From Aphrocallistes beatrix (lineage: Eukaryota > Porifera > Hexactinellida > Sceptrulophora > Aphrocallistidae): 64,000 bases of DNA. The notes under the pieces were generated by a model that made no database searches, had not been told where the DNA came from, and saw only the letters and a list, made by a program, of their open reading frames with translations. The stretch is from contig OY725492.1 of NCBI GenBank assembly GCA_963281255.1, positions 2,960,104-3,024,103 of the forward strand, read 5' to 3'. How positions within the stretch are numbered: position 1 is the stretch's first letter; each line of letters starts with the position of its first letter. The translations under genes were made by a program, and so were the position numbers. Positions 2,066-59,915 of this stretch are shown piece after piece.

Positions 2066-4500
2066 AGCAAACGGTATTTGCCTGAAATGCGGTCGATCAC
2101 GAACTTCTAATTCCGCAATAAATCATCTTCACTGCAACCCAGGCCCCAAAGCTTGTCCTCCCCCGCAAAACTGAAGCTTGTTATACAGGCACTTGTTCCC
2201 ACCAGGTCATTACGGCCCCATCCCTATGGAGAGTAAAAGGTTCCTTTACAATTACGCCAAGACCAGATAATGTAGCCAACGCGCGTCTGCCGCCTTTTCA
2301 ATAAGGGAGGGCGGACTAGGATTGGTCCCACCCTCCCTTCCTTTGATTGCCTATGAATCCCATTTTTGTACCCTTTGTAATCACCTCGCAACCCCTCATA
2401 TGAGATCCCTCTATCATCATTATTTGATGTCACCAGGAGCTCCATGTAAAAGAATTGAGCCCCAGATCCCTTCCCCACAGAATTTGAACACAAACCACCT
2501 CCCGTGTTCTTCATGAACTATATTGATCCCTTCCTGGCTCATAAAGTCCAACGGATCTTAGGATTCGGATCATTATTTCAAACCGCTGAAACTCAACCTA
2601 CCGAGCAGTTCACCTCTGCATTTCATTTCGCACTCAATTTAGAGTACAACACCCCGCCCCTCACTCACTTCCCGCTACCACGCTGGAAACGAGACCTCCA
2701 AAGGGAATATAGATTCCTTCTCACTCGAGTTAAAGACCAAATTCGCAAACATTCATTATGTATTATCCAGGTGGACAAAGGTCATGGACTGGTTATCCTC
2801 CATGAATCAGACTTAGCCGAAATATATAGACTATGGCTAAATGAAAACGCTACTCGTGTTCCAGGATATTACTACTTTGACGCTGTAAACAAACTCAGAG
2901 ACCTCCTAGCTGACGAGGACCCTGAACTTAAATCCACCCAAGATGATCGCCCCCCCACAATGTACTTTAAAGTAAAAGTTCACAAACCAAATTTTAAATC
3001 GCGAGAAGTAACGTCACCAGGTTTATTTCAAATCAACAATACGCTCAAAGAAATGTCCCAACTTGTCCGGCCCATAGCCAACCACAAACCCTCAATTTCA
3101 ACCCTTGTCTCAAACCACTTACGCCCACTCATCACGCCCATAATCAAGAATTCACCCTTTCTATGTGAAGATGTTCACGAGGTGATTGATGCCTTACGAT
3201 ACCCATCAATATCCCTTGATCACTTTCGCACGTACGACATAAAGTCATTCTATACCTCCACACCCCACCAGCTCATACTCGAAGCTTTTGAACATTATAA
3301 CCCAGATAATCCATATTACCCAATTCTGCAAGCTCTGCAACCGCTAAATTTTGTTACCGACGGATTCAAATATTATACATTAGGACATACAGGCATTCCC
3401 ATGGGATTACCACTAGCCCCTGAATTGGCACGAATGTGTACCGCTTATCTACTCCTCAACTATTCCCCACCACCCAATAATACGCTCACATTATACTTCG
3501 ATGACCTAGCTTCCACCTACGATATCCCCTCAACCCTGCTTGCACCCTTTATCCTTGAAAAAGGACCAAATAATGTAACGCAGGATGTTCTATATGACCA
3601 ATCATCGCACTCCTTCATTCAAATAACCCATAACTTCAAACAACCAACCCCTTTACTTGTAGCCTCCAACCATCCATCGCAAAAAATGCTCTCCTCAACC
3701 TGGCGAGCAGCCGCCTTACGGTCTGCCAGAATAGCCACCCAACCTAAATACGCTCTAACCACACATTATCGACGCTACATGCCGCACTATATGCGAACCG
3801 GACACTCACTCTCCGAGTTAGCATACGCCATAGCAGATCTGATGTATTTCCCCATGAACACGCCCAAGACCCCTCAGCCCGAAACGACTGGGATTAGCTA
3901 TAATTACTCCCAAACCCGACCAACAAAAAGGCAACTGGCCACAATCACTAAGCAAGACTTCCATCTTGTCCCAAAAATCCCACCCCCACCCCTCATATCC
4001 ATTCTCCAGTATTCATACCCTCAACATAATCTCGAACATCGAGTCACAATCTGTAAGGACAGATGTAAAATCTGTATCTCTTACGAACAACGTTTCGGAA
4101 CCTCTACTGCGATCCCCTTCGAGCCATGTGCACATCTACGATGCACGTACCTATTACACCACCCATTGTTCAAAATGTTGTCTACGTGGGCCAAACAGGC
4201 GCCACCGCAAGAGTGTTACGACAACCACGATCACACCACCGCATATGACGACATCTCGCCACGGTACCAGATTTATTCTGGCAAGTGTGGAAATTCTTTT
4301 CTCCACACTTTACCGCAGTGTCTCGTCTTGAGACATCTCAAGAGCTTGAAGCAGCCAAGCAACTTAAACGCAACCACCCAGAACTAACGATTTACGTGGA
4401 CCATCCCAATGAATTTTATAAGGCCTTGAAAGAGGCCATTGCTCCCCTTCCACCCATTTCAGACGCGGAAGATGACCCCTAGATTAGTATCCTTCGGATT
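2066..4500 (+). mobile_element. Penelope-like retrotransposon, decayed
   Basis: The span covers a Cys-rich open stretch near 2066-2170, the reverse transcriptase frame at 2504-4387, and a C-terminal GIY-YIG-type nuclease spread over other frames at about 4130-4482. RT followed by a linker with Cys pairs and a GIY-YIG nuclease is the architecture of endonuclease-bearing Penelope-like elements. The exact termini are not clear: the left edge abuts a TA tract at 2030-2058, and the right edge lies somewhere before the Helitron copy starting at 4652. Confidence 0.75.
2504..4387 (+). pseudogene. Penelope-like reverse transcriptase, frameshifted at its nuclease end
   Basis: The frame of 627 codons holds RT motifs in order: DIKSFYTSTP (motif A, about residue 243), GIPMGLPLAPELA (motif B, about 295) and YFDDLAST (motif C, about 330). 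The two catalytic Asp of motif C are present. A Cys cluster (CKDRCKIC) near 4050-4080 is the linker zinc motif. After this the frame drifts: HCSKC is in another frame at 4164-4178, and the nuclease signature YVGQTG is in the third frame at 4183-4200, followed by an in-frame stop near 4245. The last segment, 4285-4482, is open in that third frame. So the RT may be intact, but RT and nuclease cannot be made as one protein. The start at 2504 is the longest open frame; a true start may lie upstream in a different frame. Confidence 0.78.
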
Positions 4501-6230: not shown

Positions 6231-6901
6231 CAGTAGGACGTCAGTTATCCGAACGGATCGGGACCGAGGGGGTTCGGATAACTGAAATGTTCGGATAACT
6301 GAAGTTGTTATGTAATTATATAGAAAAGTTGGTCAGTGGTACTAATTAGTCATAATGATGAATATGGATAAAATACATATTGATCTATGTACGTATCATT
6401 TATAGTATACAAGCGCGCTTCGCTTGCTTGCGCTGCGCGGCTGGCGGACACTTCGTGTCCGCCGGAGGCTCCCTTTGGTCGCCTGGAGGTGAGATTGGTC
6501 AATTATAAGGGAGATATCATCTCTAAATATCTCTATCTTAGTTTTAAAATCGATATCACTCGAAAAACAACAGATTTGTCAATTTTTAAAATTTTGATGA
6601 GTAATGATGACGTCATTACAAAGTGATGAGTCATCATTTTTTGATGATAGTTGCATCATATGTGAGGTATGTGAGTATACATATTCTATTAAAATTTCAG
6701 CCTTCTATCTCCTATAATGGCTGAGTTATGGTCGAATAACTGTGTTGCTTAACTTTTAAAAATGTGACAATGACGTCATAATTCCATGATGAGTCGACAT
6801 TTTCGTCTGAGCTCAGAACTTACTGGAGCCATAGCTAAAAGACTCCCACATGCCAAAAATCAGCTTTCTACGCCTGGCAGTTTCTTCAATCAATTCGTTA
6901 C

Positions 6902-6943
<42 letters not shown>

Positions 6944-7114
6944 ACAATAATCGAGTTTTAATAGTAAGGATAAAATGATGGCAGTGTAGAACTTTAAATT
7001 CTCAACTCAAGGATGCATCATTTATAAATTTATTAATTTTAGTTTGGTCAACCAAGGGGTTCGGATAACTGAAGTGTTCGGATAACTGAAGTTCGGATAA
7101 CTGACGTTCTACTG
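6231..7114. mobile_element. pogo/Tigger-type MITE (family B), interrupted by a Helitron-like copy
   Basis: The ends are CAGTAGGACGTCAGTTATCC and its complement at the right (GACGTTCTACTG), flanked by TA, with repeats of TTCGGATAACTGAAG inside. A complete Helitron-like copy (6410-6970) interrupts it. The uninterrupted sister copy at 25518-25825 gives the precise empty site. Confidence 0.88.
6410..6970 (-). mobile_element. Helitron-like element, complete, 561 bp
   Basis: On the minus strand it starts TCCTTACTATTAAAACTCG, has a TA tract (about 6902-6932), the body, the hairpin GGCGGACAC...GTGTCCGCC and the terminal CAAGCG...CGCTTG. Compared with the intact MITE at 25518-25825, the flanks AGTATA and TAAAATG join exactly, with no base duplicated. 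That gives insertion between A and T (element orientation). Confidence 0.9.
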
Positions 7115-7162
7115 TATATAAAAATAAATAAATATACATTAATCGAGTTTTAATAGTAAGGA
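7115..7162 (-). mobile_element. Helitron-like 5'-terminal fragment
   Basis: A TA/AAAT-rich stretch is followed by the complement of the 5' terminus, ending AATAGTAAGGA at 7162. It abuts the 3' terminus of the next copy at 7163 with no spacer, which makes a head-to-tail junction. Confidence 0.8.
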
Positions 7163-7685
7163 CAAGCGCGCTTCGCTTGCTTGCGCTGCGCGGCTGGCGG
7201 ACACTCCGCCGGAGGCTCCCTTCTGTCGCCTGGGGGTGACATTGGTTAATTATAAGGGAGATATCATCTCTAAATATGTCCATCTTAGTTTTAAAATCGA
7301 TATCACTCGAAAAATCACCAAATTTGTCAATTTTAAAATTTTTGATGCGTAATGATGACGTCATCACAGAGTGATGAGTCACTATTTTTTGATGATAGTT
7401 ACATCATATGTGAGGCGTGTTAGTGTTATACAGATTCTATTAAAATTTCAGCCTTCTATCTCCTATAATGGCTGAGTTATTCCCGAATAACTGTGTTGCT
7501 TAACTTTCAAAAATGCGACAATGACGTCATAATTCCATGATGAGTCGACATTTTGCTCTGAACTCAGAACTTGCTGGAGCCATAGCCAAAATACTCCCAC
7601 ATGCCAAAAATCAGCTTTCTGCGCTGGGAAGTTTCTTCAATCAATTCGTTACAGATATATATATATATATATATATATACTATAT
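7163..7685 (-). mobile_element. Helitron-like element, body and 3' end
   Basis: It starts at the hairpin terminus CAAGCGCGCTTCG and reaches the conserved CAATCAATTCGTTACAG, then a TA tract that is interrupted by the MITE at 7688. Its own 5' terminus is lacking. It faces the forward copy at 8224-8741. Confidence 0.82.
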
Positions 7686-21655: not shown

Positions 21656-22178
21656 TCCTTACTATTAAAACTCGATTAATGTGTACAAGCGCGCTTCGCT
21701 TGTTTGCGCTGCGCGGCTGGCGGACACTTTGTGTCCGCCGGAGGCTCCCTTCGGTCGCCTGCGGTCACCATTGATTAATTATATGGGGGATAACATCTCT
21801 AAATACATCTGCCCTACTGTTATAATCGAAATCGCACGAAAAATCACCAAAATTATCAAATTTTAAAATTTTGATGAGTAATGATGACGTCATAACAAAG
21901 TGATGAGTCATCATTTTTTGATGGTAGTTGCATCATGTGTGAGACATGTTAGTATACAGATTCTATTAAAATTTCAGCCTTCTATCTCCTATAATGGCTG
22001 AGTTATGCTCGAATAACTGTGTTGCTTAACTTTTTAAAATGTGACAATGACGTCATCATTCCATGATGAGTCGACATTTTCATCTGAGCTCAGAACTTAC
22101 TGAAGCCATAGCCAAAAGACTCCCACATGCCAAAAATTAGCTTTCTATGACCGGCAGTTTCTTCAATCAATTCGTTAC

Positions 22179-22236
<58 letters not shown>

Positions 22237-22377
22237 TAATCGAGTTTTAATAGTAAGGATAACAGTAGGGCAGACGTCTTTTGAGATGTTATCTCCCTTA
22301 TAATTAACCAATGTGACCTCAGGCGACCGAAGGGAGTGTCCGCCAGCCGCGCAGCGCAAGCAAGCGAAACGGGCTTG
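21656..22377 (+). mobile_element. Helitron-like copy disrupted by another copy
   Basis: The forward 5' terminus (21656-21685) and 3' part (22260-22377, AACAGTAGGGCAGACG to GGGCTTG) are separated by a complete reverse copy at 21686-22259. The middle of the host copy is missing. Confidence 0.75.
21686..22259 (-). mobile_element. Helitron-like element, complete, 574 bp
   Basis: On the minus strand it runs from TCCTTACTATTAAAACTCG through a long TA tract (about 22181-22228) and the body to the CGCTTG hairpin, flanked by A and T as in the other copies. Confidence 0.86.
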
Positions 22378-25455: not shown

Positions 25456-26336
25456 TCCAAACTATTAAAACTCGATTAATGTGTATATATGTGTGTGTAT
25501 ATATATAAATATATATACAGTAGAACGTCAGTTATCCGAAAGGGTTGGGACCGAGGGGGTTCGGATAACTGAAGTTGTTATGTAATTATATAGAAAAGTT
25601 GGTTAGTAGTGCTAAGTAGTCATAATGATTAATAATGGATAAAATACATATTGATCTATGTACGTATCATCAATAGTATATAAAATGATGGCAGTGTAGT
25701 ACTTTCAATTCTCAGCTCAAAGATGCATCATTTATATATTTATTATATTTTAGTTTGGTCAACCAAGGGGTTCGGATAACTGAAGTGTTCGGATAACTGA
25801 AGTTCGGATAACTGACGTTCTACTGTATATATATATATATATATGTAACGAATTGATTGAAGAAACTGCCGGTCACAGAAAGCTGATTTTTGGCATGTGG
25901 GAGGCTTTTGGTTATGGCTCCAGTAAGTTCTGAGCTCAGAGCAAAATGTCAACTCATTATGGAATTATGACGTCATTGTCACATTCTTAAAAGTTAAGCA
26001 ATACAGTTATTCGAGCATAACCCAACCATTATAGGAGATAGAAGGCTGAAATTTCAATAGAATCTTTAGACTAACATACCTCACATATGATGCAACTATC
26101 ATCAAAGAATGATGACTCATCACTTTGTTATGACGTAATCATTACTCATCAAAAATTTGAAAATTTATAATTTTGATGATTTTCGTGCGTTATCGATTAT
26201 AGCACAATGGCAGACGTATTTAGAGATGTTTTCTCCCATATAATTAATCAATGGTGACCACAGGCGCCCAAAGGGCGCCTCCGGCGGACACAAAGTGTCC
26301 CTCAGCCGCGCAGCGCAAGCAAGCGAAGCGAGCTTG
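25456..26336 (+). mobile_element. Helitron-like element with MITE in its TA tract
   Basis: The 5' terminus TCCAAACTATTAAAACTCG is followed by TA/TG repeats, the MITE at 25518-25825, a TA tract and the body, ending GCGAGCTTG at 26336. Confidence 0.83.
25518..25825. mobile_element. pogo/Tigger-type MITE (family B), uninterrupted, 308 bp
   Basis: The ends are CAGTAGAACGTCAGTTATCC and GGATAACTGACGTTCTACTG, flanked by TA. Its centre, AATAGTATATAAAATGATGG near 25672-25691, is the empty-site counterpart of the Helitron-like insertion at 6410-6970. Confidence 0.9.
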
Positions 26337-27295: not shown

Positions 27296-27766
27296 TATAT
27301 ATATATACGTATTTATATATAAATAAATAAATAAATATACAATAATCGAGTTTTAATAGTAAGGACAAGCGCGCTTCGCTTGCTTGCGCTGCGCGACTAG
27401 CGGACACTTCGTGTCCGCTGGAGGATCCATTCGGTCGCCTGGAGGTGACATCTGTTAATTAAACGGGATATATCATCTCTAAATATGTCCATCTTAGTTT
27501 TACAATCGATATCACTCGAAAAAACACCAAATTTGTCAATTTTTAAAATTTTGATGAGTAATGATGACGTCATAGCAAAGTGATGAGTCATCATTTTTTG
27601 ATGATAGTTGTGTTGCTTAACTTTTAAAAATGTGACAATGACGTCATAATTCCATAATGAGTCGACATTTTCGTCTGAGCTCAGAATTTACTGGACCCAT
27701 AGCTAAAAGACTCCTACATGCCAAAAATCAGCTTTCTACGCCTGGCAGTTTCTTCAATCAATTCGT

Positions 27767-27806
<40 letters not shown>

Positions 27807-27874
27807 AACAAACAATAATTGAGTTTTAATAGTAAGGATATACACACACATTAATCGAGTCTTAATAGTAAGGA
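27296..27874 (-). mobile_element. Tandem Helitron-like copies with stacked 5' termini
   Basis: A 5' fragment (27296-27365, ending AATAGTAAGGA) abuts the 3' terminus of a copy at 27366-27838. A further 5' terminus follows at 27839-27874. The copy at 27366 has an internal deletion near 27608. Junctions have no spacer. Confidence 0.82.
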
Positions 27875-29658: not shown

Positions 29659-29740
29659 TGTATGTTATTATGATATTATTTAAAAACGTGCTCTGCTTAT
29701 TATATCTAAAATATCCAAATCAAATTTAACATAGTATTAC

Positions 29741-32700
29741 CTGATTTTTATATCCTCCGAAAATTTGATGTATTTCCTTCTCTATGATCTCTGAGATAGG
29801 TGGTAGCTCTTCATAGTCGAGAGATCGAATATCGTCAATGTGAACTGTGTTCCACTCTCCTCCACAGAAGCTTTCAAATGAACTGCCGTGTGCTTCTCTT
29901 CTCAGCTGAACTAAGAACACGAGACACACACCACATTCCCCATTTTCACTCTCTTCCCGCCAGTCACTTAACTCCTCTACCGTCTTGTGACGAGCACAAG
30001 CAATCAGTTTTGCATTCTCCGTTCCTTTATCACATTGCACGAGCAGAATCCTTTTACCAGGTCTTATTGTTCTCTCACTTCCTGTTTCTGCTCTCAAAAA
30101 TTTTTGAATTTCGCTACTGAACTGCTGTTCGCTCTGAAATTGCTGGAGAGAAAGACACTTTATTTCATTAATTTCTTCATTCAAACGTTTTTCCAATTGA
30201 TTCACATCTCTATCTGTCAAAAGACGTGAATGTGTGGTAGCTAGTGTCAGGTGTTTCCTTGCATTATCATAAATACTGTCTAATGCCTGTCTCAGATATT
30301 CCTCGAGGCTACCAAGTTGTAATTTGAAATATTCTCTCATGATATTTTGTGACTGTTTCCTGAGATAACTATTTTTTACTCTCAGCACTGCGTCCGTTGT
30401 AGCCATTCTTAACAATTGAATTTGGCTTCTCTCCAGCACTTCTCTGTCCACCTCCACATCACCAGTCGCTTCATCAGGGTACATTGCTTTCATTACGTGG
30501 AACACAATGGAAGAAGCTGTGTCGGCATGATAACCAATGAAACAGTCCCCTTCGCTGAATTCACATCTCTTCTGGAAACCAATAGAATGTGTTCTATCCA
30601 ATGTCGAGGAGTCCTTTGCCCACTTCCTCAGTAAACCTGATATCACTCTTCCTTCATCAGAGAGTACTGTTGACATGGTGAGAAAGTGTTTCTCTAATCG
30701 ATTGATAAGAGGAGTTGGAAAAGTCCTATACACGGTTTCTGTATCAGCTATTACAATGAGCTTAAAGTCTCTATGCACCCGACATTTCATTCTGTGAGTT
30801 CCTAATCCCAGATCAACATAACGCTGATTGTATATCTTCATATAGTATTGGTTAAGAGCATCGTAGAGGCTCTCATATAAATTCTCCAAATTTAGAAGAA
30901 TTATGGCCTTTCCGGATTCCATACAAATTTTGATTTTATTTATGTTACGGCATATCGTCGAGTACTCCTGATCTCTAGGAAAATGAGATCCAAAAATAAC
31001 ACGATAATCATTTAACCACATTTTGTGAGATATGAGAATATTTAGTGCAGCATAATTCTCTGTAAGAAGTAAAAGGTACCGCGTTTCCCCATGGAATGAA
31101 ATCGAGAAACTATCCAGGTTAGCACGTATCAGGCCTAACGGAGAGCAATCAGGACCTACGTCTGAATCAGGTATATCAATCTCCTTCTCGAATATAGCGA
31201 GAGCTTTGTTGTCAGAAGCGCCACCGAAATTTCTGAGTATACAGTGCTTTAGAATACATTTAGTCATAACAGTACCAAATTCGTTGCAGATGAATACTAG
31301 CATTTTCATCAGACTGTAGAAATCCCTCAACCCATAATACTCCCTAGTTCCTGTGTTATTTTTCCAAAGAGATTTTGCGGGACAGGAATAATCCCTCACC
31401 AATTCGATATACGCTTTAGCTAAATTGGGAATCCAACATTTAATGCTCTTTATTATATCGGGACGAATTGAATCTGAACAGCAGATTTCTTCTGCACTAG
31501 ATCTTAGTTCTTCAATGTCTGGGTCTCCTCTCGCTACCATGATCCCTCGGTTCATCTTAGCAGGGTCGAGTGACCAGTTAGAAATACCAATGAATGCAAC
31601 ACGATCTATCGACTCATCTCGATCGTGCTCCTCCTTCTCTTCTAAATCTGATTTCTTTACTTTTAGACATACTTGTGGATTATTCGCTAGACAATTAGCT
31701 TCATCACTAGCATCATGATCTATTTCCTCAGTTCCATAGTTGCTATCCTCCAAAAGTGGATGCAATACCTTCAAAGGCAAGAGAGGAGAGTCCTCAGCTA
31801 ATCCAACTTCATCAAGCACAACACAAGACACGAATTTTTTGCTTCCGGTCTGCCTCTGCATATTTCTACAGTTTCTAAATACTCCGATTATTCCTTCAGG
31901 AGTGGATAGCTGACTGCATTGATAGGACATGATGTGAACTTGTTTGAAGTTTCGGAGGAGACTTTTATCAGGGCATTTATTTCCCTGCATATTATTCGAA
32001 ATTATAGACTTAGCAAGCGACTTGGAGCTTCCAGGCTTACCAATAACAAACAATGGAATCTTGAGCTCAATACAAATGAACATCATGAATACATTCTCTT
32101 TCAGAGCTTTGTTCTTCGCAATGTGTTCATCCACAGTCATCTGATCTAAGATCAGCTGTTGGCATCGATCTACTTCAAAATGAATCAAATTAGGATCGCG
32201 AATGGGAGTAAGCGGTTGTCTGAAATATTTTGAAATTGTACCATCAAACAAATTACGTTTCTGAAGTCTTGCTCGATAACACACAGCTAAGGAGAGAATC
32301 AAACTGTAAGAAACATAGTCAATGTTGTGAATAGTTGGCTGTAGCCGTGGTGGTTTGGGAGGAGAACAAGCCACGTTTTTCTGTATCAACTGTCGACGAG
32401 GTGGGCTTCGCAATAAATCATCTGTTTTTTTCACTGGAGACATAGGATTCATTGATACTCGGGGAGGAATTATGGGAATTTTTTTCATTGTTTGTGGGGG
32501 AGATGTTAGTAAATGAGGAATAGATAATGTTGATAAGATTGAATGATCCGAGGTAGTCGAGTTAATTGATTCATTAGCCTCACCAGACATATCACTCGAA
32601 TCTTCAGTTGATTCTGGTTTGAAAAACTGAAGGTTGGAATAGAACCAGAGCATAACTGTCATTGCTCTCTCCACATCCCTCAAACTCACGAAACTACACT

Positions 32701-35700
32701 CGTCCTTTCTCCCTCGCATGAAGTTCTGAGCACGAGCTAGAATCTCCGTAATCACATCCACCACACCATCATTTGCATCTATAGGACTGCTGCGATCTCT
32801 GAGATGCTTAGCAACGATCTCGCGGGTGTACGTTCTCTCAATGTCATTACTCAGCTGACCGAAATCCCACACCAGAGGCCGCATGCTAGCAGGCAGCTCC
32901 ATCACTCGATACACCAATTCTCGGAGAGGAATGTCTCCCAGTCTGTCTGTCGTCCTACTCGCCTCTGTAAAGAAACCGAGACCAGCAGAACTCAGTTTGT
33001 TCAGCATCTCAGCCGAGTGTTTACGGTACGGGTTACAAGCTGCAATGAACTGGAGTCCTATGTCAGTACGGATCTTCCTACCATACATCCTCCTGTCACA
33101 CATGATCTCTTTGATTAGACCGATAGCTGGACTCGTGTTAGCTTCATCGAAGAAGAGCACTGTATCAATATTCAGAGAGTTTGGATCATCCTTAATGATC
33201 TGTGAATTCTCGACAGCTAATGCTTCAGCTTCCATTACTTTATCCATGACATTTTTTTCTGTTGTACCTCCGTGCACTTTCAGAATTAATATATTCTTAG
33301 CTCCAGTCTGTAGCGCTTGTAATGCACACATGAACTGAATCAGTCTGGTCTTACCACAGCCAGTCTCTCCCATGATAACGACAGGGATGTTGCACCTGAA
33401 GCGCATTAAGATTGCCAGAATCTTCCGCACATTGTCAAGCGTCAGGACATAGCCAGGATCTGGATCTGCTAGCCATTCTAGACCCATTACCTTGGCAATT
33501 TTTTCGATTTTCTCATGTTTTTCTAGTTGTAGAAATTTTTTACTTGTGTCTACCCCATTTCTAGTCAAAGTATTCAACAATCTTTTCTGGATAATACTCT
33601 CTTCGATAACACAGTTTGGGTTATCGGAATCAAGCAGATGACCTTGGGTTGATATTTGAAAACCTAAGAAGGTCATGCTGTGTCTATCAAGATTGAAGAA
33701 AATATATGGATGAGAGCTTTTCTCCCATTTTCTTCTTTCAATAATTTCATATACTTTTAAAATATCATTTGAAATTTGTCCAAATTTTGATTCTAAAGAT
33801 GGAGTAGCAAAATCCCTAGACATGTGAATAAGGAATTTGATTACAAAAGATTTAAACCCTTTCCATTCTTCTCCTATTGCAGCTGAAAGACAATAGTCAG
33901 AATTATCACAGTCAGAAAGTTGTGTATTCAAAAAGGTGGCAAAATTCCTAATTTCAGTCCAAGATGGTTGTTTGACTCCACAATGTTTCAAGAATAGTTG
34001 CAACATTTCTTGAGGACTCCTACAGACTACAGTATCAGGATTGAATGAGTACAGATCGAGGTCACTACCCATTTCCATCTGCTTCAGGTACGCGAATGTT
34101 CTTTGGAACTCTTCCCGGCTCAATTCTTTCGAGTCAAAGGTCTGCAATCGGGGATTCTTAACTCCCATCGTATTTAACGCTTGGATGGGTTGAATACACT
34201 GAATCGTGGGAAAGAGTTGAGTAAAATTTAAAAAATGAAGAGAATCCTGATTAACTGTGCATTCAATGATGTAATAATCGTTTCGTCTACAATGCCACAA
34301 TTCACCTGTCCTCTTGCAAATCCCGCCTAAAACGAGCAGTTTGAAGAGAATGGGTTCTAGACCTAACTGGACAGTAGAAGCAATATCCACGTGGAACAGG
34401 TGTCCATGGTCCGCACTGCTCACATGCTTATCCAGCAACTGACCAGTCAACATCTCCTCTGAGGCCTGCTTACCATGAATGGCTACCGTCACAGCTGCCT
34501 CTTCTCTCTCCTCCTCACGCACCACGCCCTGACTCAGCATGTCAGACACGAGATTACTCACGTACAGAGACTTACCTGCTCCCACGCTCTCAGACACGAC
34601 CAGCCTCACTCTGGACCTATCTTTATCCACCATCCAGGTTGGATGAATGTCATTTGAACACATATTTGAACGTAACTTTTTCCATAAGTACTGAGTATTA
34701 CTATCGGATATTTTCAAATCAGATATGTGGTTAGGTCTCTTGTAATTCTCTAATGCAGCCGCCATATAGGACTCCTCCTCCCTCTCTTCTGAGCAGATAA
34801 CTACCAACTTGAAATCAGAAATATTTTCACACTGCAAATACTGGCGGAGTTTGTGAACAGACTGTACCGCTACCTCATATTCGAGATTCTCTATTCCGAC
34901 CAGACAGTGCACATAAAAATGGTTTTGTGCTGATTTGTAAATAACTCTTCTCCAGAATATATCCATCTCGTCAGATGTAGTCGGATATGAACACAGCAAT
35001 ACTTCACTGAAGTATGGAAGAGGAAGATTAGGAGACATTGCATAGAGACTTATAACTGATTCGTATAGCAAATCCATTGGAACAAATATTAAATTGGGTT
35101 CACGTTTTTTGAAAATTGATGGAAATGCTCGCTCTCCTCGAATTTTAGTTTCACTGTTATGATATATTTCTCTCAAGAATTTACCTAACTTGAAGTTATC
35201 AAGGTATTCCACTTCACTCCGAATCGACTCTGGCGGAATGGATAACATATCCCTTGGAGCTGTAATGTCACTTAGATAATCTCCCTCGTTCTTATCAATC
35301 TGGAGTTCGTCAGAATCCGAGTCATTGCATTCCTCTCCCTCACTCTCTGTATCTGTAGCATAATCCATACAAAACCTTATGAGGGCATCTTCTGACAGAA
35401 CACCAGTGTTATTCAGGATTGACTTTACCCCTTCAATAGCTACATTCAGTGGAAATCCACAATCGGAGCTTACATTGTTAGCAATTGTCTTGTCAGAATC
35501 AGAAAAGTAATCAGGAAATTCCAATTCTTCATTAACGCAGATTGCTGAGTGCTTTGGTTTCACAGCTCTATGGAAAGCTGAAGAAGGCTTACCTAAACAA
35601 GAGAAGTGAGAGGGATTTGCAAGAGAAATGATAGGATTTGGATGGATGTGAGAAATTTGATGTTTATCATTTATCAGTTCTTCATTCTGTAAAGCCGAGT

Positions 35701-38038
35701 GAATATCCTCTGCACAAACTCCAGAATTAAGCAAGCCGAGCAGATGGTAGAGTTGATCTCGATCACCTAGGTTAACATCGTCACCACTAATATATGCCCT
35801 GAGACCTTTCTGAAGTAAAACTAACTGCGCATTAGTATAGTAATTCAAAAAGTAATTCTGCTCCCTAGCTTCCTCCAATTGAATTATGTCTTCTTCCAGC
35901 ACTTTTCTGGTCTTTTTGATTTCTTTTTCAATTTTATCAATCTCTCGGAAAGTGAAAGAAATGGAATAATTAAGATACTGCATGTTTCCAATCTCCACTA
36001 AGGCACTAAATATATTAGCAATCTCTAATACCAAATCAAAAAAGTTGTTAAATGTCACTGCATTAGAATGGCTATCACATTTGGAGATTATTTTTGATTT
36101 TCCAACAATTAGCATCAATTTGCTCCTGAGATCTTTCAGCTGCTCTAGATTATAAGCCTTAGTCACTTCGCCATCACTTCCTACAGTTAGAGATATCATC
36201 AGGTCCGGGATAGAAGATTTGGCTGTTGAAACAGTACAAACTCCAGAGGATACTATCTTCTCCAGCTGAATGAGAGCTCCTTCTTCTAAAGATCCCTGAG
36301 ACTTCTTCAGCTCTTCCCAGTATAAGATATTCTCAGACACATACCCTAACAACCCGATCAACTCCTTATTCGTGCGTACGATTGAAAATACTTCTCTACA
36401 TCGTTCTATGAGGTAGTTGCACGTTGTCTGACTGTCTACCTTGAATATCAGCGGAGCTAAGTTGGTGCACACTGAATGGAGTATCATAATGCGATCAGTC
36501 TCACTCTGGTCCCCACTCGAACTAGTCAGTGCAATTTCAACAAAGGTTTTCAAATCATTTAGATTTTTCATATTTTGTTTTACCCAATTAATAAACTTTA
36601 TGTTTTTCAAAATAGTGTCTAAGAAAGATCGGTCTTCTTCTGTGATATTTTGTAATACACTTGCAGTAAAACATACTTCCTCGTTGATTGATGAAAGAGG
36701 CTTATTTTGAAAGTTTATTCTAAAATTCTGAAGACCTTCAATCAAGCTAAAGTCAGTATTTATTGAAAATTCCTGTTTTACTTTCATTAGTTTCACAGCA
36801 GATTGTGCGCAATTCTGAAATTTGAAATACAAAGCAATTTTATAACTACATTCGAGTATTTTGGGAATCTCTTCTATAGGTTTGGAAGAAGCCTTCTGAC
36901 AACCAAATGTTAACTTCTTCAATTCGTCCAAAATCAACTCGTAAGTTACGTTAGATTCAAAATCCAATTGAACACTGGAAAGTAAGATTGTTTCATTCAT
37001 ACATGAATCTACTAATAATAAGAGTTTTTCAATCGTTTGTTTCCAAGCAATTTCGATTAAAAATCCCTGAGATAAATCTGATTGTTTCAACTCGTCCAAT
37101 TGCTGCTCAAATGTAGCTCTAAATATATAGGAAGATTCAAAAGATTGGGCGGAATTTGATATGGCAAGGAAACAACTTGAATTTATAATCATATTCAAAT
37201 CTGGATGATTAAGAAATTGAAATTTTCCATGTGTCAATTCAAGGACATCAAAGAGTTTCATATACAAAAGTTCTAATGAATTAAATTTATTAATGTCATT
37301 GAAATTCAATCCGCGAATATTTTTAAAAAGTAAACAGATATTGGTTAGCATTTCAAGATGCTTTTGTAACCAAGCATTGGCTTCTGCGCAGTTACTAAAA
37401 GCAGCATGCACTTCTTGAATAGTATGCGAAGTTTCCTGACGAGAGTTCAGTGCTTTTTCTGAAAGAGAAAGAAAAGCTTCGGAATTTTTTTGGATAATGA
37501 AAAAATCTGTAATGTATATATCAAGTGTACAGATAGAGTTAATCCTATGCAATAGATGAATGAATGCTTTTTCAAGAATGTCTTTAGCTTCTTTTGACAT
37601 ATTAAAATGTATTGGATGTGTAGAATTAAATTCAAAATAACTCGTCCATGATGGCCACTCTAAAATATGACGGAGTGGGTTTTTCATGAAATCTCCTTCT
37701 GCACCCGTTAGAATAGAACAAAAAATTCCGGCTATAAGTGTTAATTGATTTTTTTTAAGATTTTGTAGTTGTTTTATTACAAATTCATGTTGTGAATTAG
37801 AATCTGCACTCTTAAGCTTAAATGACATCACTTCAAGAAACACATCATGTAATCCTGATTGAAATAAACTTTCGTCTAGGCTAGTGAATAGGGCTGTAAA
37901 TTGTGGCAATTGCAAACTTTTTAATTTTGAAATTAAAAAAATTTGAATTCTATTATGCCATCTAAATGATGATGGAAATTTAATTAGAAATATTTTATTC
38001 CAAAATCTCAATTCTATCTCGCTCTGAATTTCGGACAT
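29741..38038 (-). CDS. RNF213: RNF213-like, stalk and AAA+ core, one giant exon block
   Basis: This is a continuous frame of 2,766 codons ending at the donor CAG|GTAATA. The first 1,100 or so residues are helical stalk. AAA modules follow, with P-loops at about 1153 (GAGKSLY, degenerate surroundings), 1558 (GETGCGKT) with Walker B LFFDEANTS near 1626, and 2001 (GKPGSSKS) with Walker B VVLDEVGLAED near 2075. The last two correspond to AAA3 and AAA4, the catalytic modules of RNF213. NLYESLYDALNQYY near 2410 is near-identical to vertebrates. Two low-complexity inserts stand out: an acidic one near residues 890-920, and a Ser/Pro-rich one of about 100 residues between AAA3 and AAA4. The Met at 38038 is probably internal: the frame stays open upstream to about 38215 and should join the N-terminal block. 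Confidence 0.93.
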
Positions 38039-38076
38039 AAAACTAATTTGTGTTGGAGCTTTAAATTTGTTCCATT

Positions 38077-41000
38077 TTAAAACAAAGTTGAAAATATTTT
38101 CAGACTCATGTTCAGTGGTAGGAAAAGACTCAATGTTTTCAAGAAAACAACAACCACAAAAAAATTCATAATTGAATAAAATTCTTCTACACTTAGATCT
38201 TCAATTAATATTTTGTTAGAATAAGTCAGAGTAAGTTTGAATACACGATCAACGTCAGTTGGAGGAAGGAGTTTAGATGAAATATTTGCACTGAGCTGTG
38301 ACGAGACAAAACTCAGAATATCTTTTGACGGATTTTGATAAATATACTTTCTATCCTTTGTTAAAGATAATAATAGAGCACTCATGAAAGCTGACAATAA
38401 GAGCAATTGAGGGGATGATTCATGGAATTTGAAAAGTACATCGATACTATTTGGGCTAAAGATCGAATTGTACAAAATACTGTAGGCGATCACATTATCT
38501 TTTTCTACTAATTTCAGAGAAGCCTGAATAATATTTTTGGATAAATGTGGAGGCCTGATGATTTTTAAGGAATCAGGATATCCCCAATAGCTATTACTAA
38601 GGTAGTCTAACTCGTTTAGATGAACCAGATGCTTCTCATTGTATCTAAATACAAGATGGTAAAAAGCTAAAACTTCATAATATGAGTATCCTCTACAAAG
38701 TGTAAATTCATTACGCATAAAGGAATTGAATGGTTCAAGGAGTATATCCATATTCATAATAGAACCTAACGCCAATTCTGTTCTGTGAAAATCATTAAAA
38801 AACTCACCAATAGTATCTATGACTTTAATAAAAACATTTTCCGATTTTATATCATATTTCTGTATTAGATAGATACTCAAATAAACTTTTAATATCACTT
38901 CTTTCACATTTTTGTCTTTTGGCTCCCCTAAGATAAATAAAATCCAGTTCTCTATCAAATCCATCCTTCCTGAATACACATAGTTTGGAACATGATCCCA
39001 ATTCCTTGGATCTATATGATTGATTGGAGATATTTGAATGTGCATAAAATTTTCAATCATATCCATTAATATCACTACAAAACTATCTAAATCTCTACAT
39101 TCATGTGCACCTGTAAAATGGCCCATACCCATAAATGCAGGAAGAAGTGCTTTAAGAGAATAAAGTCGGCGTAGTTTTATATCTTTAAAAATGGCTCCAC
39201 CTTTGTCAGGACCAAAGAGAAAGGAAGAAAAGCGTTTCAAAAGATCTGACATCTTTCCTTCATCTGACTTCTTCACATCTGGCAGCACCATGACATCAAA
39301 ATGATTAAGCTTAGCATTCATAAGTTGTGAATGACTTCCTGTAATTGTCTTAGAAAAAAATCGGTTAAAATCTTTACTAGAATAATGATGAAGGCATTCA
39401 TACACACCAGAACCATCTTTCATACGGAAAAAATATTTATATGGAAATTGAAGCGTATTATTTTTCAGTAATTTGATTGGTACTTCCAAGATACCAGAAA
39501 TGAGTAGAAATTGATAATTGGTAAACTTAATCGAACTGATGGGGGAAAAGGGACAAACATCAACATTAAAATGCTTAAAATAGTCCATTCCTATCCTTAG
39601 GTATATAGTATCAGTATTTTCGAATAATTCCCTTAGTACTATTGTATTAAATTGTATAGAGAAAGCTTCAGGATTATTCTTCTCTTCGTTACTAACTAAG
39701 GGAAGGCTCTTGGGAATAAGATTAATAAAAAGTTCTGCTTCATCTTTAGAGATATCCAAAGCATCCTGAAAGTTGTCTGGAGTATCTTCCAATTCAGGAT
39801 TATCATCTAGAGAAATTTTGGAAGTATCATTCTGAGTAATTTCTGAGGTATCCTTTGGAGGGGTTTCTGAAGTATCCTTTGGCAGGATTTCTGAAGTATC
39901 TACAGGAGGGGTTTCTGAAGTATCCTTTGAAGGGATTTCAGAAGTATCCTTCGAAGGGATTTCAGAAGTATCCTTTGGAGGGATTTCTGAAGTATCCTTT
40001 GGAGGGATTTCTGAAGTATCCTTTGGAGGGATTTCTGAAGTATTCTTTGGAAGGATTTCTGAAGTATCTACTGGAGGGGTTTCTGAAGTATCCTTTGAAG
40101 GGATTTCAGAAGTATCCTTCGAAGGGATTTCAGAAGTATCCTTTGGAGGGGTTTCTGAAGTATCCTTTGGAGGGATTTCTGAAGTATCTACTGGAGGGAT
40201 TTCTGAAGTATTCTTTGGAAGGATTTCTGAAGTATCTACTGGAGGGGTTTCTGAAGTATCTACTGGAGGGGTTTCTGAAGTATCCTTTGAAGGGATTTCT
40301 GAAGTATTCTTTGGAAGGATTTCTGAAGTATCTACTGGAGGGGTTTCTGAAGTATCCTTCGAAGGGATTTCAGAAGTATCCTTTGGAGGGGTTTCTGAAG
40401 TATCCTTTGGAGAGATTTCTGAAGTATTCTTTGGAAGGATTTCTGAAGTATCTACTGGAGGGATTTCTGAAGTATTCTTTGGAAGGATTTCTGAAGTATC
40501 TACTGGAGGGGTTTCTGAAGTATCTACTGGATTGGTTTCTGAAGTATCTACTGGAGGGGTTTCTGAAGTATCCTTTGAAGGGATTTCTGAAGTATTCTTT
40601 GGAAGGATTTCTGAAGTATCTACTGGAGGGGTTTCTGAAGTATCCTTCGAAGGGATTTCAGAAGTATCCTTTGGAGGGGTTTCTGAAGTATCCTTTGGAG
40701 AGATTTCTGAAGTATTCTTTGGAAGGATTTCTGAAGTATCTACTGGAGGGGTTTCTGAAGTATCTACTGGATTGGTTTCTGAAGTATCTACTGGATTGGT
40801 TTCTGAAGTATCTACTGGAGGGGTTTCTGAAGTATCTACTGGAGGGGTTTCTGAAGTATTCTTTGGAAGGATTTCTGAAGTATCTACTGGAGGGGTTTCT
40901 GAAGTATCTACTGGAGGGATTTCTGAAGTATCCTTTGAAGGGATTTCAGAAGTATCCTTTGGAAGGATTTCTGAGGTAGCCTTTGGAGGGGTTACTAAGG

Positions 41001-41256
41001 TGTTCTCTAGAAAGATTTCAGAAGTATTCTTTTTTGGGATTTCTAAAGTATCATTTTTTGGTGGGTTTTCCAATCTAGCTTTTGGAGAGTTTTCAACTGA
41101 ATGAGAAAGAGAAAACTGGCCCGTGATGGTATTCATTTCATCCACCAATCCAATTACATCGACTAGAAGTCCGCCGCAAAACATACAGAACATAGCTTCA
41201 TTAGGTAAAACATTTTTCTGCGATTTTTGGCAATTATTCTCGCAAATTTTCGGCAT
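38077..41256 (-). CDS. RNF213: RNF213-like, N-terminal block: zinc ribbon, repeat tract, CBM20-like domain
   Basis: The frame of 1,059 codons opens with a zinc ribbon (C5, C9, C24, C27), as vertebrate RNF213 does. It then has a tract of about 48 eight-residue repeats of the type DTSEIPPK (about residues 85-480), then a beta-rich segment of about residues 535-650 that aligns with the CBM20-like domain (IYLRIGMDYF, YKYFFRMKDGSGVYEC), then helical stalk. The frame ends 38 bp before the Met of the next block. Its last 30 codons overlap an open frame that continues into the stalk, so the stop at 38077 is likely not the real protein end: either a 1-base indel in a run of seven T (38158-38164 on the plus strand) or a very short intron. 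The ATG is 3 nt after an AG acceptor. Confidence 0.85.
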   Translation of the reverse strand: MPKICENNCQKSQKNVLPNEAMFCMFCGGLLVDVIGLVDEMNTITGQFSLSHSVENSPKARLENPPKNDTLEIPKKNTSEIFLENTLVTPPKATSEILPKDTSEIPSKDTSEIPPVDTSETPPVDTSEILPKNTSETPPVDTSETPPVDTSETNPVDTSETNPVDTSETPPVDTSEILPKNTSEISPKDTSETPPKDTSEIPSKDTSETPPVDTSEILPKNTSEIPSKDTSETPPVDTSETNPVDTSETPPVDTSEILPKNTSEIPPVDTSEILPKNTSEISPKDTSETPPKDTSEIPSKDTSETPPVDTSEILPKNTSEIPSKDTSETPPVDTSETPPVDTSEILPKNTSEIPPVDTSEIPPKDTSETPPKDTSEIPSKDTSEIPSKDTSETPPVDTSEILPKNTSEIPPKDTSEIPPKDTSEIPPKDTSEIPSKDTSEIPSKDTSETPPVDTSEILPKDTSETPPKDTSEITQNDTSKISLDDNPELEDTPDNFQDALDISKDEAELFINLIPKSLPLVSNEEKNNPEAFSIQFNTIVLRELFENTDTIYLRIGMDYFKHFNVDVCPFSPISSIKFTNYQFLLISGILEVPIKLLKNNTLQFPYKYFFRMKDGSGVYECLHHYSSKDFNRFFSKTITGSHSQLMNAKLNHFDVMVLPDVKKSDEGKMSDLLKRFSSFLFGPDKGGAIFKDIKLRRLYSLKALLPAFMGMGHFTGAHECRDLDSFVVILMDMIENFMHIQISPINHIDPRNWDHVPNYVYSGRMDLIENWILFILGEPKDKNVKEVILKVYLSIYLIQKYDIKSENVFIKVIDTIGEFFNDFHRTELALGSIMNMDILLEPFNSFMRNEFTLCRGYSYYEVLAFYHLVFRYNEKHLVHLNELDYLSNSYWGYPDSLKIIRPPHLSKNIIQASLKLVEKDNVIAYSILYNSIFSPNSIDVLFKFHESSPQLLLLSAFMSALLLSLTKDRKYIYQNPSKDILSFVSSQLSANISSKLLPPTDVDRVFKLTLTYSNKILIEDLSVEEFYSIMNFFVVVVFLKTLSLFLPLNMSLKIFSTLF
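39832..40990 (-). repeat. Coding 24-bp minisatellite in RNF213-like exon
   Basis: About 48 tandem units of 24 bp (plus-strand core TTTCTGAAGTATCC/TACT...GGAGGGA) all stay in frame and encode DTSE-(I/T)-x-P-(K/V). Units alternate among a few variants in higher-order blocks. Long open frames on the opposite strand here are a by-product of the repeat. Confidence 0.92.
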
Positions 41257-41261
41257 GCCCT

Positions 41262-41925
41262 GTCAAAAATAGCGTTTCAAAGTAATTGTTGTTGTTAATA
41301 AGTTTTAGTTATTTGGAAACGTAATTCCTCAAGCTCTATATAGGAAAGAATAATTTGATTAAAAACATAATTATACTAGTATTAGGAATGTATTTTCTTG
41401 GAAAATAATTGAAAATAATTGTTTCTTGGAAAATAATTGTAAAGTTATGACTGTACCGCAATAGCAGATGTGCCAACTATCGCGGTAATCTGTGTTCCAA
41501 CAGGGGCAGATTGGGAAACCAAAACGTCCCTGGAAATATTATGACAGTTTGAGAACATAATCCTCTCTGAATAGTCCGATTTCAACACTATTTGTATAGA
41601 AGTTTTCGTGGTGGTCGAATACTTTTGTTCGGGTCCTGTATATACTTTGAAGATAAATTATTGACTATATTATACAGGGTGACACAAAGTAAGCTCTTTT
41701 ACAAGCTTCATAGGTATAATTTTTCTTATACTCGAACAATCTTGGTTATTATGTTCTTTGTAATACAAATATTCAATGATTTTAAAATACTTTTAGAGTC
41801 CAAGACCGAGAACTGTGTTTGATATGGCGAGTGTCCTGGCACCAGCTAAAATCGCGAATCAGGGCCCACTGCTTATGTAAAAATGTCTTCATAATCGAGG
41901 TTCCATAACGATTTAGTGCCAGATA
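41262..41925. other. Intergenic, with one MITE fragment
   Basis: A right-end piece of the 20428-type MITE lies at about 41570-41637 (ACTATTTGTATAGAAGTTTT to TTTGTTCGGGT). Sequence at 41670-41800 (CGAACAATCTTGGTTATTAT) matches the complement of 42980-43110, so an inverted repeat surrounds the foldback at 42410-42990. No gene is seen. Confidence 0.55.
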
Positions 41926-49666: not shown

Positions 49667-52600
49667 ATGGCTTCATTGAACGTTCCCGGACCGAAGCCTA
49701 CCCTTCCTCCCCTTCAGAGCCTAGGAGGCAGAGGGTCTATGTCCCGTCTCGTCTGCTCCAGCAAATCTCTCCTCACAGCGCAACCCTCACACATCAGCAC
49801 TCAGTCTTCCCAACACCCCGACCACTTAATACCTATGGAGGCCGCTCTAGTTGGCACTTTCCTCTCGGAGTTTATCAACCAGGTGGCACTGCTCCTCAAC
49901 ATTCTCCCAACACCTGCGAGCTCGGACAGAGCTCTGCACGGATCTCCGCTCTCCGTGCAGTCGCTGGTGGAAAACGTGCTGGCGCCGCGGCTAACAGAGA
50001 TTCTCACTGTACAGGAGAAACTGAATGAAGAGGGTGATCTGCTGGAGAGGAGAGGCACTCCTATTTCCAAAGAGTCAGTTCAGCTTTGTGGTTATTCATG
50101 ATTATTAATTAACAAACGTAATACTGTATTTACGATATACTAGAGTCACCACCAAGCTAGTAGCACCATATCTCAGCCAGGGTCTACTGTTTTAGCTTCA
50201 TTATAACTTTTTCTAATTAATAGGAACGATATTTAATAAATGTATGTTGATAAACTTATAGTGGAGCTCCAGGACTCCAGTTTATAAGAGTGAGAATCCT
50301 AATTTCTTGATAAGTCGTTGTATTTACATTAGCATTAGTACGTGCGAATTCAGATTCTATAGTAAATTGCTAGGGCTATTCTATTTGACACTTTTCTCTC
50401 AGAGTTTAGAGATATTGTTAAAACAGCGGCAATTCTGAAATCTTAGGAAAAGTCATACTTACCAAATTTGATACTAAATCAGGCCGTTAGTATTCATCGG
50501 ACGTACGAACGTTTAAGGAGTTGGGATAAAAATATAGACAAATTAAGCTATTAATATATTTCGTATTACTGAATCTAAATACCATGTACGTGTATGTACT
50601 CTTTTAGATTGATGTTGTACTATTTTCTAATTTCAAAATTTAAATTCAATGATTTCCTTCCACAACAATCCACTTCTCTAACAACCAATGCTACTTCATC
50701 AGATCTATGATTCTAGGAATAAATCGGAGGCATTACGAGACATTTTCTCCAAGATGGAGTCCCGTGGCGCCTATCCCGACCAGAGCCTGAGTAGGACGGC
50801 AGCTCTCACAGCGGAGAATCAGACTAAGCTAATCGAGGACTGTCAGTTCCTGCTCGACACTCTAGAGAAGGTGCAGTTGGAAATCAGCGAAGACGGACGC
50901 TACCCTACTCTCCTTAAGCGCGTGAAAGAGGCGAACGATGAGAAAGAGAGGATTAGACAGATAGTGCAGAAAGGTGAGTACACAATATTATCTCATTAGC
51001 TAGCATTACTGTCTTCTGTGCCATAACTCTCTAACCCACCGTAACAGGGGCATAGCCTGTCACTCCGAGCTGGGCCTGCAGCAGCCTAAAACGACAAATC
51101 TACAGGTCCTGGTTGGGACTGCCGGCAGGCCCTTGGTTATGCCTTTGCACCGTAATCGATCCCGAGAAAGATTTTTCAAAACAGTACCCCATTATTGCAT
51201 GGACTGATGCGAGATTCCCACTGGTGGATCCAGGGGGAATATTTGTGGGGTTGCAACCAAATCATTCTGCAAACGTGTGCACCAACACTGGTGCGGCTTT
51301 AGGTGGGAGACTGACAACCCCAGTGACCCTATGGGCACGGTAGTGTATGTGGCCTTATTTTTTCTCGATTCCTCCAGATATTTGACTCACCAAACAGTAG
51401 TGGATTCGTTTATTAAAATTCTAAGTGGTTGATATAACTAGCAAAACATTCATTGTTACAGTTTGATTGGCCGAACAGTAGGTCGCATTTTATCTGGAAT
51501 TCACTTGTAATAAATTACAATCGAGGGAACGAAATGAAGAATTTAAGCCATGAATGTAACTTGGAGGATTTTTTGCTTAGAGCAGGGGTGCTCAAACTTT
51601 TAAATCTACGGGCCACTTTAAAAATTAGGCTCTGCCTTACGGGCCACAAATCATAGATCACCTCTGGCTTTAGTTTAATCAATATTCAAGCTATACTATT
51701 TGACCTCATATTGCATTAACAATGGATTCTACTTGTAAATTCAGGTTATTGACTTAAATTATAATCTTTTGAATGGATTCGAATCATTTGATGTCTCTTT
51801 TGAACTCAGCTTGTTTTCTAGCAAGTGGACAATAGTACTAAACCTAGATTTGGGGGATACTATATACGTACTGTTCATAGTAGAATAACATTGCAGAAAA
51901 ATCTACCTAAACTACGAACTTTAACTAATGAAAGTGATGATGTTGCTTGGATTTAACTAATAAATCAATATCTGCTTCTATATCAGTCGTTGCTAGACGA
52001 AGACACTGCTCCAAATGTGAATCAGTGATGGTTGATCTAATTGTGGATTTTGTATGCTTCATGCGGGAGAACATCTGCTCACATAAATATGTGTTTCCAA
52101 AGAGTGAAAATATTTTTGCTGCGTGCGTTGTCAATTTGGGAAAATTTTCCGCTGATACACATGTTTTATAAAATTGTAGCAGTGGCGTATCAGCGAACTT
52201 CGTTTTCATGTTCTCGTCACACTGAAGCTCAATGAGTTCCATTTGAAATTCTCCCGCTACCTCTTCCATCACATTCACAGAGAAGGGATTAGTAGCAATT
52301 TTCAGGTTACATTCATGGGAGCGAAAATCTGGAAACCTCTCTTGGAATTCAGTCTGGAGTTGACATATCGAAGTTACATATTCTGGAGCGTATTCTGCGC
52401 ATTGCAGTTTTGACATCGCTTGAAAATGAATCAAAACCTCTTTTCTTGAAGCTGACTTTTGAAAAGATGTAACTTCATTTCGAACGCTTTCACGTGGTTG
52501 AAAAGGACATGGACCAATTGATCTTTGTACTGAAGCTTCAAGTTGAGGTTATTCAAATGCGATGAAATATCAGTAAGAAAAGCGAAATCAGCAAGCCACT

Positions 52601-58865: not shown

Positions 58866-59915
58866 CAGTTTGTCTCATAATTATTTAGAATTTGATGTTA
58901 CATTTCAATCCATAGTCGATCTTACTATTTTAAGTTCAATACCCACTAAGTAGACGTAAATAAGTGAAATAGTCTCTAAAGTTTACTAATTTAGTTTGAG
59001 AATCTGCTCTCTCATCACGATGACGTCATAATTAAATAATTTGGTGTATTTTCCTTCCTAAGACTTTATAGCCTTCTAGTGTTTTTTGAATAGCATTTCA
59101 TGGCTCAGAGAATAAAGAGAGACCTTGTCCGAACGCTATTAGAGACAAACAAGTTAAGCCCAAAGGAGATCAGTGAGGAGGCTAGCGTTTCATTGGCAAC
59201 GGTTTACAATGTGAAAAATAAACTGAAAGCAGGGGACTCACTTGAACGTGCAAAAGGTGGGGGCAGACCTGGGGATAAACAACACCAAATCGCTCGTTCT
59301 TTTGCTCAATACATCAAACAAGATTATGCTAGATCTGTTCGCGAAATTGCCTCTGAAATAAACAGCAAAGGAGGGTTATCTGTGTCGAAGGACACCGTAC
59401 ACCGTTGTTTGAGGAGAATGGACTATTCGAAGCCCAAGCCATATACTGTACCGATGTTGTCCAACAAGAACCGGCTTAAGAGGCTAGATTGGGCTAAAAA
59501 GAACAAAAGGAGGATGTAGTCCAGGGCAATATTTGCTGATGAGGCTTCATTTTGGATGGATGAAAAAATGCCGAACAAACTCTTAGACTGGCCAAGTCAG
59601 AGCCCAGACGTCAATCCCATCGAAAATATCTTTGGCTGGTTGAAATATCAGCTTGCAAGATCTCGCCCGAGAACGATTAGCGAACTCAAGGCGAAGTTGG
59701 TTAACATTTGGGAGAGTCTTAGCCCGAAATTTCTTGAGCCCTATTGGAAATCGATGCCAAAAAGATGCCAAATGTTATTAGATAATCAAGGAAACAAAAT
59801 TAAATATTGAACTACTTATATTTCCGAATATTTTGGCACATCGATCACTTGATTTAGTCGAATGGATGTTGTCGTTATAGTAATTTTTTATGAGACAAAA
59901 TTATGAGACAAACTG
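58866..59915 (+). mobile_element. Tc1/mariner transposon, 1,050 bp, internally deleted
   Basis: The termini CAGTTTGTCTCATAATTAT and its complement (ATAATTTTG-type variant, TTATGAGACAAACTG) are flanked by TA. The transposase frames run at 59100-59810. The insertion site is the TA within ATACGTA of a Helitron-like copy. Confidence 0.88.
59100..59810 (+). pseudogene. Tc1/mariner transposase, centre deleted
   Basis: The first frame (59100-59519) contains the paired helix-turn-helix DNA-binding region (SPKEISEEASVSLATVYNVK; VSKDTVHRCLRRMDYSKPKP). After a TAG at 59517-59519 the same frame resumes with IFADEASFWM, the first catalytic Asp. It then jumps directly to SQSPDVNPIENIFGWLK, which carries the second Asp and the Glu. 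In full-length relatives about 80-90 residues lie between these. So the copy has an internal deletion of about 250 bp plus a stop, and cannot be active. Confidence 0.88.

Follow-up and report, generated by a model that had tools for sequence, protein, structure and literature searches.

The window, the whole 64,000-nucleotide stretch of DNA that was analysed, contains a MITE that is split by a 561-bp insert, an unbroken sister of that MITE, and a group of copies of the insert's family, some full and some partial, in both orientations. SAS-6 and RRM proteins are encoded in the window and point to an animal source. A single open frame of 2824 codons (29726–38200, minus strand) displays a weak dynein-like AAA domain and, judged by eye, may resemble RNF213, and a 1061-codon frame on the same strand (38077–41262) consists in part of a long run of short DTSEIPPK-like repeats, with the opposite strand also open across part of this region. 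On the plus strand, a 642-codon frame (2459–4387) carries a reverse transcriptase domain (RVT_1) and a Tc1-like transposase remnant (HTH_Tnp_Tc3_2) is found at 59094–59519. A hAT transposase remnant (51925–53635, minus strand) matched below the cut-off. The insert, its host and its relatives in the window are organized as follows:

6231–7114, no strand assigned: host MITE, split by the insert
6410–6970, minus: 561-bp insert, almost certainly a non-autonomous Helitron copy (empty sister site; ends as in RepHel elements)
6948–6970, minus: 5′ terminus TCCTTACTATTAAAACTCGATTA, preceded by a host A; 3520 exact genomic copies
6905–6942, minus: TA-rich microsatellite just behind the 5′ terminus of the insert; RepHel elements have one too
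6443–6463, minus: subterminal hairpin with a 9-bp stem, GGCGGACAC/GTGTCCGCC, 33 nt before the 3′ end (folding and some covariation)
6410–6438, minus: near-invariant 3′ terminus with two weak, mutually exclusive hairpins
6410–6426, minus: candidate flush terminal hairpin
6415–6438, minus: candidate competing hairpin, ending 5 nt before the terminus
7115–7162, minus: 5′-end fragment of another copy, abutting the 3′ end of the 7163–7685 copy (head-to-tail G/T)
7163–7685, minus: copy whose 3′ end makes the head-to-tail junction at 7162/7163
21686–22259, minus: complete copy, 574 bp
25518–25825, no strand assigned: unbroken sister MITE, the paralogous empty site
27366–27838, minus: internally gapped copy that borders the second head-to-tail junction (27365/27366)

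Read on the minus strand, the insert starts with TC at 6970 (5′ end) and terminates with CTTG at 6410 (3′ end), so that a host A is followed by TCCTTACTATTAAAACTCGATTA (6970–6948) and the final CGCTTG (6410) by a host T. Terminal inverted repeats are absent, as TCCTTAC... and ...GCGCTTG are not inverted copies of each other. The coordinates and flanks of the insert and of the whole sister MITE agree with those given in an earlier, sequence-only reading of this DNA, as does the TA microsatellite behind the 5′ end. The joined flanks of the insert match positions 25580–25781 at 93% over 202 columns with a gap-free junction. The exact join of the flanks proposed in that reading is thus upheld in that no base is duplicated or lost, but the empty site in the window reads GTATATAAA (TATA), in which one TA more or less could mask a duplication, and this site alone is therefore unable to exclude a TA duplication.

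Both termini are abundant in the genome to which the window belongs, 100.5 Mb in 28 contigs. Exact matches number 4731 for the 16 bases of the 3′ end and 3520 for the 23 bases of the 5′ end, versus zero occurrences of either pattern read backwards in the same genome, which is more than chance would give. The next base is T after 4643 of the 3′ ends (88 lack it), and A directly precedes 3349 of the 5′ ends (171 lack it). Among fetched copies, a set biased by having been largely chosen by similarity to the insert, T follows all 62 distinct 3′ ends and A precedes 52 of 58 distinct 5′ ends. The earlier statement that all clear copies begin with TC after an A and end with CGCTTG before a T is therefore exact for the 3′ side of this set but not for its 5′ side; four of the six fetched 5′ ends that lack the A come directly after the 3′ end of another copy, one of them in an overlapping register. 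In strict textbook Helitrons the 3′ terminus is CTRR. Here CTRR takes the place of CTTG at only 28 ends genome-wide, 24 of which are CTAG, against 4731 with CTTG, which is therefore almost uniform. The exact 5′ end was absent from the viral contigs scanned, a scan that may omit near relatives of the genome.

A comparison of more empty sites, suggested in the sequence-only reading, yielded three extra filled/empty pairs. From 33 complete copies 13 were picked, and the joined flanks of eight were searched in the genome; L007 and L027 were left out because of family sequence in their flanks and L023, L026 and L028 because of length, and the right flanks of L005 and L022 were shortened. Among the 40 places listed of 2388 candidates, uninterrupted paralogues were present for three of the eight sites (4, 3 and 33 places), and the five sites without a listed place carry no weight. 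Twelve of the 40 were fetched and aligned (4/4, 3/3 and 5/33). The three empty sites, ATTATA^TAATTC, CCTA^TAACC and TTTGTA^TAGTAT, are continuous in each empty copy fetched, and all 12 copies have an A^T junction with zero bases duplicated or lost. Including the window site, four filled/empty pairs lack a target site duplication, and the TA duplication suspected from the TATA of the window is ruled out by the three further sites.

These data bear directly on whether the insert could be a cut-and-paste TIR/DDE MITE that duplicates a TA target and merely sits in TA-rich sites. All four empty sites are TA^TA, and in the fetched set TA precedes 28 of 58 5′ ends and follows 40 of 62 3′ ends, as would suit such an element. 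However, both TAs are already present in the 12 fetched empty copies, so there is no duplication, and the second and third of the extra sites refute it. Moreover, AA and CA also occur before fetched 5′ ends, the ends are not inverted repeats, and full-length elements with the same ends encode RepHel. We consider a TIR/DDE origin extremely improbable. Because all four empty sites are TA^TA, the target preference of the family may be wider than A^T.

The genome contains 106 matches to PF14214 (Helitron_like_N), versus none in 14 control genomes. Thirty RepHel loci were excised from these matches and belong mostly to two types, H35 (11 of 30 by best match) and H34. The search for a Rep/helicase element with the same ends, also proposed in the earlier reading, led to two H35-type elements. 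The first (C2:3994039-4003543) spans 9505 bp and reads A/TCC...CGCTTG/T, with a single mismatch among the 23 bases of its 5′ end, and the second (C3:4344403-4353615) spans 9213 bp and has the same two ends. The first element contains an uninterrupted frame of 1958 codons from ATG, and 485 bp just inside its 5′ end match the 561-bp insert at 89%. Since four other RepHel loci have the same 5′ region, this stretch belongs to the element; for the H35 type, a chance closeness of short copies and Helitron genes is ruled out by this region being common to several loci.

The 1958-residue product matches Helitron_like_N (1.8e-59) and PIF1 (4.2e-74) in Pfam, together with Pif1_2B and N-terminal STPR repeats, and no endonuclease domain was detected at E 0.001 in this one scanned ORF of the element. 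Its C-terminal GDGNCLYRTL looks OTU protease-like by eye, with no Pfam match at 0.001. Among solved structures it aligns with Helraiser (7lcc) over a 735-residue core (E 8.5e-179). In this alignment the PHAH motif is identical in the two proteins and KYLYKY lies opposite KYLFKY, which by count places its tyrosines at Helraiser positions 727 and 731; we take these to be the catalytic residues.

In two H34-type loci (L034 and L036), the 5′ end is related, with A followed by TCTTATATATTAAAACTC and a T-rich microsatellite, and the 3′ end reads CACTTG/T. L036 has an extra CGCTTG end 103 bp past the CACTTG end. In L034 another H34-type 5′ end directly follows the 3′ end, and a short copy close by runs in the opposite direction and was taken as a separate insertion. 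Among the 106 domain matches, both ends were read for four RepHel loci, and L040, L041, L045 and L039 were read in part or ambiguously (the 5′ end of L041 is N). Two loci were rejected as proof of a common 3′ end: the last ~270 bp of L040 also occur in a short, high-copy subfamily whose 5′ region is of the H34 type, and in L045 the family 3′ end comes after a break in the alignment and the family 5′ end was not found.

The insert is thus almost certainly a non-autonomous Helitron of the canonical (Helitron1-like) kind, and the RepHel of larger Helitrons with the same ends probably copies it in trans. The Helitron identity proposed in the sequence-only reading is borne out by the lack of duplication at the three further sites and by a partner that encodes a Rep-helicase, not a DDE transposase. 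In the anticipated reaction, the HUH/Y2 Rep and PIF1-type helicase of the larger elements would nick the strand where the host A meets the 5′ TC, this strand would be peeled off as far as the 3′ terminus ...CGCTTG, and the product would be pasted between A and T without duplication of the target. The strand-level steps are modelled on the Helraiser work; the RepHel protein presumably mobilises the short copies, and the 9-bp hairpin is a putative terminator. The bat system Helraiser/Helibat is alike in its RepHel transposase, 5′ TC, A^T target and abundant short non-autonomous copies, according to an excerpt of its description (PMC4778049). The same excerpt places a CTAG end and a 19-bp palindrome 11 nt upstream of it in Helraiser, whereas the end is CTTG here and the better-supported hairpin lies 33 nt upstream.

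Helentrons and their HINEs (Helitron2-like), to which the insert might alternatively be assigned, also have a microsatellite behind the 5′ module as well as a palindrome on the 3′ side. Oyster HINEs likewise have a microsatellite in the 5′ module and no target site duplication, but in the excerpt of their description they insert at TT and carry subterminal inverted repeats (PMC7492417). The A^T insertion at four sites and the genome-wide flanks differ from TT, Helraiser is the best relative of the partner protein among solved structures, and the Pfam scan of its ORF gave no endonuclease domain. A Helentron assignment is accordingly very hard to sustain, and the canonical Helitron reading is retained.

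We further analyzed the 3′ region for secondary structure. For the last 54 nt of the insert, DNA folding gave a z of -4.97, compared with -0.33 for a stretch without the 9-bp stem and 0.01 for the terminal 24 nt alone, for which 100 of 200 shuffles were as good; the last 54 nt of the H34 type gave -1.80. Covariation was counted in 39 of 52 distinct 3′ ends, the other 13 being excluded because they had indels, stood in the wrong register or continued into unrelated sequence upstream. Both-sided changes in the 9-bp stem amount to 10 cells at two pairs, and seven of these cells represent one U-A pair that is probably inherited. Counted jointly for this stem and the second hairpin, the cells with both-sided changes and the covariation score are above every one of the 500 shuffles (mean 2.8); pairs with both-sided changes are no more numerous than in the shuffles, 354 of 500 being as high. 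In the flush hairpin 98.7% of cells are paired, without both-sided changes, and one of its pairs is broken in two ends, one of which is the H34-type CACTTG. The competing hairpin is paired in 97.1% of cells, also has no both-sided changes, and fails at one pair in 4 of the 39 ends. Neither folding nor the 39-end comparison revealed a well-supported hairpin 10–12 nt from the 3′ end. The 9-bp hairpin is thus somewhat better supported than the terminal one. The hairpin that the sequence-only reading placed at the very terminus can form in nearly all ends, but it folds like shuffled sequence.

This result also affects the suggestion that the family is a variant, undescribed lineage, whose mark would be a CTTG end lying flush with a hairpin at the terminus. 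Such a lineage would agree with the large excess of CTTG over CTRR, with the CTTG ends of both the H35 and H34 RepHel types, and with the almost complete pairing of the flush hairpin. However, that hairpin is equalled by half of the shuffles, shows no both-sided changes and is one pair short in the H34-type end, and CTTG ends are already in print. Excerpts of the respective reports describe HELPO2 of Pleurotus ostreatus with an A^T target and a CTTG 3′ end (PMC4289320), and CTTG ends in maize Helitrons and in some insertions of Helraiser that came from damaged donors (PMC4778049); HELPO2 is fungal and is likened here by description, not by sequence. Because published CTTG Helitrons exist, the CTTG end excludes the strict textbook form and not the superfamily. 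With a Helraiser-type partner and a canonical 5′ TC, A^T target and lack of duplication, a new lineage is unlikely, and the claim was not upheld. The behaviour of the family confirms known Helitron biology with a minority 3′ motif that has been published before. The family was not met by name in the published literature searched, a comparison that Repbase and Dfam lie outside. It nevertheless constitutes an unusually complete case, a single genome providing copies by the thousand, full-length coding partners and several exact empty sites, and the CTTG end of the family would escape search tools that require CTRR.

The coding elements carry internal remnants of the terminator, which make it testable what stops a Helitron. 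In all five aligned H35 loci (L035, L057, L041, L040 and L045, of 11 H35-type loci), a near-whole copy of the small element lies just upstream of the RepHel frame. Its 3′ region is worn, with the last ~9–14 bases gone and the terminal nonamer missing, and by eye the 5–6-pair core of the upstream hairpin is kept in three of the five. A tentative explanation, possible though on balance doubtful, is that GCGCGCTTG and not the hairpin is the true stop signal, that after its loss a short Helitron read on through DNA bearing RepHel until an intact end was reached, and that gain or loss of this one nonamer converts large and small forms into each other. A large element may arise from a short one by read-through, and a short one from a large one by recombination between two copies or early termination. 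Damaged internal copies of the 3′ end are likewise present in maize HelA as multiple (pseudo) 3′ termini, 99 of 100 sampled being without an intact CTAG in the excerpted account (PMC3288121).

The exact head-to-tail junction ...CGCTTG/TCCTTAC... occurs 66 times genome-wide. If 3520 elements landed at random, about 0.1 such junctions would be expected at the 4731 end positions, or about 1 with landing limited to a tenth of positions, and the observed number is far above both. The junctions are compatible with rolling-circle transposition. Head-to-tail G/T Helitron junctions have been reported for bats and maize in the excerpts consulted (PMC2267711, PMC5876387), the adjacent maize elements resembling the present ones in this respect (PMC2267711); the real ends of these and of HelA are CTAG, unlike the CTTG found here.

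Other arrangements of the termini were also observed. A tandem array at L100 (G000:C1:1717950-1719250) contains five exact 5′ ends spaced 60 and 40 bp apart, followed by a single family 3′ end, and the next ~70 kb of that strand is without a further exact 3′ end. With only one 3′ end over this distance, simple nested insertion is unlikely at this locus. Some copies, at L006 and L014, appear to sit within the microsatellite of another copy, a second 3′ end lying about 510 bp past the first. Five further loci (L079–L083) represent a second high-copy non-autonomous subfamily, in which an H34-type 5′ region is combined with the same 3′ end.
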